Positions 13-25,586 of a stretch of DNA of 64,000 nt are shown here, piece after piece; the stretch's first letter is position 1; every line of letters starts with the position of its first letter. The stretch spans positions 1 to 64,000 of the forward strand of contig JAJDVS010000068.1 of the NCBI GenBank assembly GCA_022825945.1. The letters run 5' to 3'. A program made the translations under genes and the position numbers. This DNA is from Pseudomonadales bacterium (GTDB lineage: Bacteria; Pseudomonadota; Gammaproteobacteria; Pseudomonadales; Pseudohongiellaceae). The notes under the pieces were generated by a model. The model was not told the DNA's origin. It did no database searches and was given only the letters and a program-made list of their open reading frames with translations.

Positions 13-136
13 CCTGCGGCACATGGAAGTGCCGCCGAATTCGATGGCGTAAGCCATTGAATTCGGGAGCAAAACAAAACCACGCTTTTGTTTTGCGATA
101 ATGAAAAACTCCACGGATGGAGTTTTTCAGAGAATA
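13..136 (+). repeat. Four-hairpin repeat element, copy A
   Basis: Four perfect or near-perfect hairpins stand in a row. H1 is 16-22/29-35 (GCGGCAC, loop ATGGAA). H2 is 36-48/53-65, a 13-bp stem including one G-U pair, closed by a GTAA loop of the GNRA type. H3 is 69-79/86-96 (11 bp, loop CCACGC). H4 is 103-112/119-128 (10 bp, loop ACGGAT). A second, expanded copy lies at 25383-25586 in the same orientation. No reading frame is conserved between the copies. It could be a structured RNA, a mobile palindromic element or a DNA structure; the sequence alone does not decide. Confidence 0.8.
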
Positions 137-4988: not shown

Positions 4989-6218
4989 ATGTCCAGATTG
5001 TCCCGAACCAATGTGGAGAGACTCGTCTTCGCCTGCTTCCTCGCCGTGCCGATTCTTTTCGTTGTCGCCCAGGACTTCACCCCGAGCATATTCGAGCGCG
5101 ACGATGGGACGATTCCGCTCAACACCGAAGAACCGGGCTTCGATCTCTGGAGCCAGCTTCGCGACGGCGAGGACGATCCCGAGCGTGAGCCGGGGCCCTT
5201 GTATCCGGGCCGGCTCCACAGCATGGGCGTGCTTACCTTCTTCCAGTTGCCCGTGGCGATTACTCCCCGGGACCTGATCGCGGGCGAGGTCGACGTGGCC
5301 ATCATGGGCGCCGAGATCGACATGGGGGTCGGCTTTCGCGGCGCCGGACAGGGGCCCAGCGCCCTGCGCCACAGTTGGGGCCGGTTCGGCGGCGGCGACC
5401 TGCCCCACATGCACACCGGCATCGCCTGGAAGGATGAACTCGTTGCCGTGGATTACGGCGATGCGCCCATAGACCGCTTCAGCGTCGAACGCAGCATGCC
5501 CTACGTCCGCGCCATGGTGCGGGAAATCGCCGAAACCGGCGCGATTCCCATCGTCATCGGCGGCGATCATTCGCTGGAATATCCCGACGTGGCCGGCGTT
5601 GCCGATGTCTATGGCAAGGAGAACGTGGGCGTGATTCACTTCGACGCCCACTACGACGCCGCCGGCGACGGCTATTCCGGCCATCTCATCTCACACGCCC
5701 AGCCCATTTACCAACTGATCGAGGAGGGCCACATCCTCGGCCGGAACTATATCCAGGTGGGTCTGCGCGGCTACTGGCCCGGGCCGGAAGGATTCGAGTG
5801 GATGCGCGAGAACAACATGCGCTACCACACCATGGTGGAAATCGAGCGCGACGGCTGGCCCGCGGTGATGGAGCGCATCATTGCCGAGGCCAACGACGGC
5901 CCCGAGCATTTGTACGTGTCATTCGACATCGACGTGCTCGACCCGGCCTACACCCCCGGCACCGGCACGCCGGAACCCGCGGGCCTGACAACCCGGGAAG
6001 TCTTCCCCCTCGTGCGCGCCCTGTGCACCGAAAAGAATCTGGTGGGGTTCGAACTCGTCGAACTCAACCCACTGGTGGACCCGGGCTACACCACAGTGAT
6101 GAATTCCGGCCGTATCGTCCAGGAATGCCTCACTGGCATCGCCATGCGCAAGGCCGGCATCACCGACGGCGCCTACCTCAACCCCCTCACCGTCGACGAC
6201 GGCAGATCCGACCCCTAG
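4989..6218 (+). CDS. Agmatinase/ureohydrolase family protein with N-terminal signal-like segment
   Basis: Arginase-fold binuclear manganese hydrolase of about 409 aa. Metal-binding motifs are present: GGDHS, HFDAHYDA and SFDIDVLDPAYTPGTGTPEPAG. The last is typical of agmatinases, guanidinobutyrases and related enzymes that release urea from guanidino compounds. I chose the ATG at 4989 because GGGAGCGGAG sits just upstream; an upstream in-frame ATG (4941) has no such site. The protein then begins with a hydrophobic stretch (LVFACFLAVPILFVVAQ, about residues 11-27), unusual for these normally cytoplasmic enzymes, plus about 60 extra residues before the catalytic core. The TAG stop lies inside the end of the palindromic element that follows. 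The exact substrate is unknown. Confidence 0.88.
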   Translation: MSRLSRTNVERLVFACFLAVPILFVVAQDFTPSIFERDDGTIPLNTEEPGFDLWSQLRDGEDDPEREPGPLYPGRLHSMGVLTFFQLPVAITPRDLIAGEVDVAIMGAEIDMGVGFRGAGQGPSALRHSWGRFGGGDLPHMHTGIAWKDELVAVDYGDAPIDRFSVERSMPYVRAMVREIAETGAIPIVIGGDHSLEYPDVAGVADVYGKENVGVIHFDAHYDAAGDGYSGHLISHAQPIYQLIEEGHILGRNYIQVGLRGYWPGPEGFEWMRENNMRYHTMVEIERDGWPAVMERIIAEANDGPEHLYVSFDIDVLDPAYTPGTGTPEPAGLTTREVFPLVRALCTEKNLVGFELVELNPLVDPGYTTVMNSGRIVQECLTGIAMRKAGITDGAYLNPLTVDDGRSDP

Positions 6219-6382
6219 GAGCCTGCGCCGTAGGAATTCACGGCTGCAAATCCGCTCTCATCCACGCCCCTGGCCGTTCGATTTCGTTGCATATTCACCA
6301 ATATTCGCCTCAATCGACCGGCCAGGGGCGCGGCGATAGCGAATTTTCGCTTTCGCGAATTCCTACGGCGCAGGCTCCTAGG
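6214..6382. mobile_element. MITE-like palindromic element, copy 1 (about 169 bp)
   Basis: The ends are inverted repeats of about 26 bp, beginning CCTAGGAGCCTGCGCCG and followed by TAGGAATTC. A second inner inverted repeat (CGCCCCTGGCCG / CGGCCAGGGGCG) brackets an AT-richer centre, so the whole element can form one long hairpin. Copy 2 at 20941-21107 is nearly identical but in the opposite orientation. It encodes no transposase, so mobility would need a helper elsewhere. CTAG occurs at both outer borders and may be a target duplication. Confidence 0.75.
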
Positions 6383-20940: not shown

Positions 20941-21107
20941 CCAGGAGCCTGCGCCGCAGGAATTCGCGAAAGCGAAAATTCGCTATCGCCGCGCCCCCGG
21001 CCGGTCGGTTGAGGCCAATATTGGTGAATATGCAACGAAATCGAGCGGCCGGGGGCGTGGATGAGAGCGGATTTGCAGCCGTGAATTCCTACAGCGCAGG
21101 CTCCTAG
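20941..21107. mobile_element. MITE-like palindromic element, copy 2 (about 167 bp)
   Basis: The reverse complement of copy 1 at 6214-6382 with only scattered differences. Terminal inverted repeats are CCAGGAGCCTGCGCCGCAGG and the matching CTGTAGGAATTC arm at the right. The inner GCCCCCGGCCG / CGGCCGGGGGC repeat preserves pairing despite a different base pair from copy 1. It sits between the aminotransferase and argG and places a potential long hairpin about 90 bp upstream of argG. Confidence 0.75.
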
Positions 21108-25382: not shown

Positions 25383-25586
25383 CCTGCGGCGCATGGAAGT
25401 GCCGTCGAATTCGATGGGTGGAGGCGAGCGTTTTCGAAGCGCAGCTTCGAGCGCGGCCGGAACGGCGCGGAGCTCTGCTCCGTGACTGGAGTAACCCACT
25501 GAATTCGTGAGCAAAACGAAACCACGCTTTTGTTTTTGCGATAAGGAAAAACTCCGCGGATGGTGTTTTTCAGAAAATACTTGGCT
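25383..25586 (+). repeat. Multi-hairpin repeat element, copy B (expanded)
   Basis: It corresponds to copy A at 13-136. H1 GCGGCGC/GTGCCGT (25386-25405) keeps pairing through two G-U pairs. H2 keeps GAATTC ends but with TGGGT/ACCCA instead of ATGGC/GCCAT. Its loop is expanded by about 75 nt that holds two more hairpins (CGAAGC/GCTTCG and CGGAGC/GCTCCG). H3 (25511-25539) has one G-U pair and one bulge. H4 is 25546-25571 with a single mismatch. It lies about 220 bp upstream of the HPF gene, in the same relative orientation as copy A upstream of its gene. From 25587 to 25804 I see no supported gene. Confidence 0.78.

Follow-up and report, generated by a model that had tools for sequence, protein, structure and literature searches.

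The run of hairpins at the start of the 64,000-nucleotide stretch of DNA analysed here (the window) is almost certainly a non-autonomous MITE of the IS5 group, IS5 family, inserted at a duplicated YTAR-like target, probably by way of an IS5-type transposase encoded elsewhere. This assignment follows from target duplications, from empty sites in relatives and from an IS5-type partner with near-identical ends. A preliminary description had seen in the same hairpins a suggestive sign of selection on the transcript; the preservation of their stems is borne out, but the sequence that carries them is a transposon-derived repeat, an origin that had not been considered. Although of a known kind, the family has a new sequence, and its five separate hairpins, together with their modular loss, are unusual. 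Its spread through a group of marine bacteria that have not been cultured most likely depended on an enzyme borrowed from an IS5-type transposon. The family is a large force in the genomes of these Pseudomonadales and probably lies behind many of the contig breaks in their assemblies.

Structure of the element

The copy at the start of the window (copy A) occupies positions 1–137 of the + strand. The window corresponds to G000:C32:1-64000, G000 being our label for its own genome, so copy A lies at the start of a contig and its 5′ side is cut by the edge. Complete copies elsewhere in the same genome, to which copy A is 97–100% identical, supply the missing part. The full element is about 151 bp long, is accompanied by a 4-bp duplication, runs from GGAAGCTCTGATYAAGTC to GAATAC and folds into five successive hairpins, H0 to H4. 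The four hairpins originally described are all present; the fifth, H0, is the one truncated by the window edge. The window includes its loop end and 3′ arm, at 1–14 (arm TCAGAGCTTCCC at 3–14), but not its 5′ arm. In other copies the complete hairpin reads GGGAAGCTCTGA-TYAAG-TCAGAGCTTCCC and contains the 5′ terminal repeat.

The remaining hairpins of copy A, all on the + strand, are intact. H1 (16–35; arms 16–22 and 29–35) has 7 bp and a 6-nt loop, and H2 (36–65; arms 36–48 and 53–65) has 13 bp, one of them an inherited G.T, closed by a GTAA loop. H3 (69–96; arms 69–79 and 86–96), with 11 bp, is the most conserved of the set. H4 (102–129; arms 102–113 and 118–129) forms 12 pairs rather than the 10 first assigned to it, and its 3′ arm overlaps the 3′ terminal inverted repeat at 120–137, whose reverse complement is GTATTCTCTGAAAAACTC. 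The right copy of the target duplication, CTAG, follows at 138–141 on the + strand; in complete copies the base after GAATAC belongs to the duplication. As RNA, copy A has a minimum free energy of −62.9 kcal/mol, with a z-score of −10.3 relative to shuffled sequence. A promoter and terminator scan of copy A gave no match, and in an Rfam scan of the window at the curated threshold only a tRNA scored.

Target duplications and empty sites

Among 52 copies for which both flanks were available, 21 are bordered by duplications that match at all four positions. The duplicated sequences are CTAG, TTAG, CTAA, CAAA, CGAA and TAAG, of which the first three are dominant; the 31 imperfect cases are explained in part by old copies that have lost an end. 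IS5 itself duplicates YTAR (PMC10359306), and the 4-bp duplications of the element are of this IS5-group type.

We searched for empty sites by joining the flanks of eight copies and querying relatives with the result, leaving out oversized pieces from contig starts. The site of locus L012 is empty in genome G032, where 82 of 82 positions are identical across the join and one TTAG is present. Clean empty sites with one copy of the target were also found for L006 in G032 and for L002 in G094, and for L010 and L022 the corresponding G094 sites are free of the element but differ by a few bases at the junction. The element is short and free of genes, exists in many near-identical copies, and has the terminal repeats, duplications and empty sites of a MITE.

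Terminal repeats and an IS5-type partner

The two ends of the element are imperfect inverted repeats that match at 12 of 18 positions. IS5-type elements with the same ends are present in the genus: compared with IS5-group ends found there, the 5′ end of the MITE is identical at 15–17 of 18 positions and the 3′ end at 12–13. Transposases of the PF01609 and PF05598 families in G000, G018, G021, G022 and G032 had been considered as the partner, and no matching ends were seen within the stretches read; the partner was therefore sought in 84 genomes with the E. coli IS5 transposase as query. The IS5-group element on contig G094:C42 spans 1094 bp between two CTAG sequences, and its ends, GGAACCTCTGATCAAGTC and GGAAGCTCTGATCAACTG, are identical to the 5′ end of the MITE at 16/18 and 15/18 positions, respectively. 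The transposase of this element shares 54% identity with that of E. coli IS5 and is broken by in-frame stops.

Many contigs of G022 break off after about 135 bases of an element that has GGAAGGTCTGAACAAGTC at its start and an ORF start resembling that of IS5. We infer that the assembly has probably collapsed the copies of an intact IS5-type element here. The same arrangement, the left end GGAAGGTCTGAACAAGTC followed by the transposase ORF start MEQLTFAELEHDAK, is seen at the ends of contigs C12, C15, C16, C44, C54, C80, C85, C92, C95 and C104. Remnants of IS5-type transposases persist in G032 and in the genome of the window (G000:C61 and C92). The latter yielded no intact transposase to match, but its assembly is broken at repeats and may be missing a multi-copy IS; an intact enzyme there bears on present activity, not on descent. 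In G077 and G104, the two finished genomes that contain the element, the E. coli IS5 query gave no IS5-type match.

In the mechanism that we propose, an IS5-type DDE transposase encoded elsewhere would recognise the imperfect ends of about 18 bp, GGAAGCTCTGATYAAGTC and GTATTCTCTGAAAAACTC, and insert the element at a YTAR-like tetranucleotide, which would be duplicated in the process. The five hairpins belong to the mobile unit, and two of them hold the terminal repeats. Most copies persist in intergenic DNA, in many cases right at a TAG stop codon, and their stems decay there more slowly than their loops. In some genomes, transposition may be recent or ongoing.

Distribution and modular variants

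That only two copies had been seen at first was an effect of the window. The genome from which it comes (2.6 Mb) contains at least 66 matches to the 5′ end pattern of the element, and G018 contains 125. DNA searches of the former returned dozens of copies with 94–100% identity in unrelated contexts, many of them at contig ends. Within the genus, 10 of 84 genomes carry the element; outside the genus, a scan of 58 relatives gave short and weak matches but no substantial one. Searches of a plasmid collection and of viral contigs gave no match. Exact matches to H3 among named records came from metagenome-assembled Pseudomonadales and uncultured Pseudohongiella genomes.

Many variants lack whole hairpins and consist of H0, H3 and H4, of H0, part of H1 and H4, or of the 27-bp ends alone. 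The last, minimal version, GGAAGCTCTGATTAAGTCAGAGAATAC, is found at L175 and L032 as two ends with nothing between them, flanked by TTAG-type sequences. At one site, the full element in L005 (G000:C10) corresponds to a form without most of H1–H3 in L372 (G018:C3), a difference that could represent either an internal deletion or an independent insertion at the same TTAG.

The second copy in the window (copy B; 25386–25580, + strand) is an old, 5′-truncated member of a long-H2 subfamily that has lost H0. Its H1 lies at 25386–25405, the arms of H2 at 25406–25419 and 25494–25507, H3 at 25511–25539 and H4 at 25546–25571, which confirms that it shares the hairpin order of copy A. The likeness between the two is not due to chance (0 expected), and copy B folds moderately better than shuffled sequence (z −2.5). 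Its pairing had been described as mostly kept. Pairs in H2 are indeed replaced and a G-U is present in H3, but H2 also contains an A.C mismatch, H3 has an extra T, and H0 is missing; the G-U pairs of this copy look like ordinary decay. The H2 loop is occupied by a GC-rich, foldable module (25420–25493, + strand) that is also found in other long-H2 copies. L038 and L349 carry the same module in their H4 loop, as if it inserted into, or were swapped between, hairpin loops.

Gene context

Neighbouring genes were assigned with a simple codon-usage ORF caller, and the gene context is accordingly approximate. Two of 75 copies lie inside genes. In many cases the copy begins right at the preceding gene's stop codon, since the target contains TAG, and TTAG is a much commoner target than CTAA. 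For the 57 copies with both neighbours called, the layouts were 26 with both genes forward, 14 convergent, 11 with both reverse and 6 divergent, and in 40 the gene on the 5′ side shared the strand of the element (p 0.003). This bias may reflect the asymmetry of the target rather than function. A position upstream of same-strand genes, noted at the outset, applies to both copies in the window but is not a rule of the family, which is intergenic and often sits at a TAG stop.

Conservation of the stems

Standard pairs make up 98.3% of stem cells across 88 distinct complete copies (96.9% in shuffles), and two-sided changes occur at 11 pairs. The corresponding figure was 2.7 (sd 1.2) in shuffles, a control that ignores the relatedness of copies, and 1–6 in slid structures. 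The claim that differences between copies preserve pairing therefore stands: the hairpins are intact to an unusual degree, with two-sided changes well above control. The largest contribution to the covariation comes from one pair in H4, which is C-G or U-A (47 vs 41 copies) with no intermediate and may reflect one old event inherited by a subfamily.

Orthologous copies provide a view of change in place. In four comparisons (L062/L341, L041/L361, L109/L112 and L109/L348, the last two of which share a copy), 7 of 429 stem positions and 18 of 162 loop positions had changed (Fisher p 3e-6). With the addition of an older, decaying pair (L271/L308), the counts were 21/535 for stems and 26/203 for loops (p 3e-5). 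At these few sites, therefore, the rate of change in stems is several times below that in loops even after insertion, and transposition alone is no explanation for this. The difference in orthologous copies is a measurable puzzle, and a role in RNA, a DNA palindrome or correction between arms are possible causes.

To separate selection on the transcript from other causes, we made use of the fact that a C-to-T change in a G-C pair produces G-U, whereas G-to-A produces A-C. The A-C count serves as a mirror control, as G-U would be favoured over A-C only if the RNA of the + strand were selected. An apparent excess of G-U in a set of 130 copies (54 vs 30) shrank to 41 G-U vs 27 A-C cells under a stricter selection of distinct, complete copies (88 copies; p 0.11; one inherited G.T pair excluded), and to 23 vs 20 when distinct events were counted (p 0.76). 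These counts give transcript selection no support, and are compatible with a weak effect. The G-U pairs that had been read as a sign of selection on the transcript do not carry that conclusion, given that the difference from A-C is not significant. Hairpin covariation and a handful of G-U pairs do not suffice as evidence of a functional RNA; the mirror count of A-C is needed as a control.

As an addition to the MITE explanation, stems could be kept at the level of DNA, either by correction of one hairpin arm against the other in cruciform or single-stranded form, or by selection on the palindrome for protein binding or transposition. We regard this as a tentative possibility. Near-equal numbers of G-U and A-C are what would be expected if the RNA of neither strand mattered, and the absence of intermediates at the H4 C-G/T-A pair points the same way, but that pair may record a single old subfamily event, and arm correction by itself, given the divergence of the loops, should have left far more two-sided changes than were observed.

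A second addition, which we consider doubtful, is that the hairpins of the MITE act, once inserted, in the RNA of neighbouring genes, as stabilisers of mRNA 3′ ends, RNase III sites or attenuators, and that the stems are maintained because the transcript is under selection. The low rate of stem change in orthologous copies, the two-sided changes and the same-strand orientation of the 5′-side gene agree with such a role, and in Neisseria and Yersinia MITEs and REPs have effects of this kind (PMC2267715, PMC10969869). Against it, G-U does not exceed A-C, the promoter and terminator scan was empty, the orientation bias could arise from target asymmetry, and many copies lack whole hairpins. A stronger form, in which the five-hairpin transposon becomes a functional 3′ structure at gene stop codons, with stems and not loops selected in place at dozens of genes, appears unlikely.

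Neither proposal replaces the IS5-group MITE as the identity of the element. It is highly improbable that the array is instead a stand-alone structured RNA, such as a riboswitch or sRNA, with dispersed copies: a strong fold and covariation would suit one, but exact empty sites refute it as a complete account, and the target duplications, transposon ends, modular loss of hairpins, lack of an Rfam match and inconsistent downstream gene also argue against it.

Comparison with known elements

The closest described relative of the five-hairpin MITE is MITEPsy1 of Pseudomonas syringae pv. phaseolicola, which is thought to derive from ISPsy2 (IS5 family), generates 4-nt CTAG or YTAA duplications and transposes in the laboratory (PMC3189936). 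Its ends, GGAAGGTCTGAAAAAGCC and GTATCCTCTGAAAAAGCC, have the same left-right asymmetry as those of our element, with 15/18 identities on the right and 14/18 on the left. Both elements therefore combine asymmetric ends of the form GGAAG.../GTAT..CTCTGAAAAA with CTAG/YTAA duplications, and neither contains a gene. The likeness rests on ends and duplications: MITEPsy1 is 100 nt long, exists in few copies and belongs to another bacterial group, whereas the present element has 151 nt, 66 or more copies, a five-hairpin interior and modular variants. E. coli IS5 resembles the element in its terminal repeats (GGAAGGTGCGAACAAGTC-like; 13/18) and YTAR target, and a related transposase occurs in the genus, but IS5 is autonomous and 1.2 kb long, and the element has no gene.

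REP/BIME and REPIN sequences are likewise short, palindromic, intergenic and present in many copies. They differ from the element in its 4-bp duplications and IS5-type ends, and the genome of the window has no Y1/RAYT transposase. The early judgement that the hairpins are not obviously REP, BIME or a known riboswitch agrees with this and with the absence of an Rfam family. IS200/IS605 is not known to make a target duplication. Hairpins at both ends might suggest a REP/BIME-like or IS200/IS605-derived element that a Y1 (HUH) transposase moves in single-stranded form. This is very unlikely, as it is contradicted by the 4-bp target duplication; the IS5-type terminal repeats also speak against it, and a search for a Y1/HUH transposase in the same genome found none.

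ERIC and Correia/NEMIS resemble the element in being mobile, non-coding repeats with stable hairpins. In most of them the terminal repeats pair into a single long stem. The element has five separate, successive hairpins, with different ends and a different target. Post-transcriptional effects have been described for hairpin-forming MITEs (PMC10969869, PMC2267715).

A second palindromic repeat family

The window also contains two copies, at 6218–6378 and 20944–21104, of a second palindromic repeat family with ends GAGCCTGCGCCGYAGGAATTC, a length of about 158 bp and CTAG-type duplications. There were 43 two-ended copies among the loci examined. This family is probably another MITE. The copy at 6218–6378 sits between the stops of two convergent ORFs. 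One TAG stop codon was found in three states in different genomes: it is occupied by the five-hairpin element in L012 (G000:C85), by the second repeat family in L351 (G018:C8) and L352 (G094:C6), and is empty in L217 (G032:C63).
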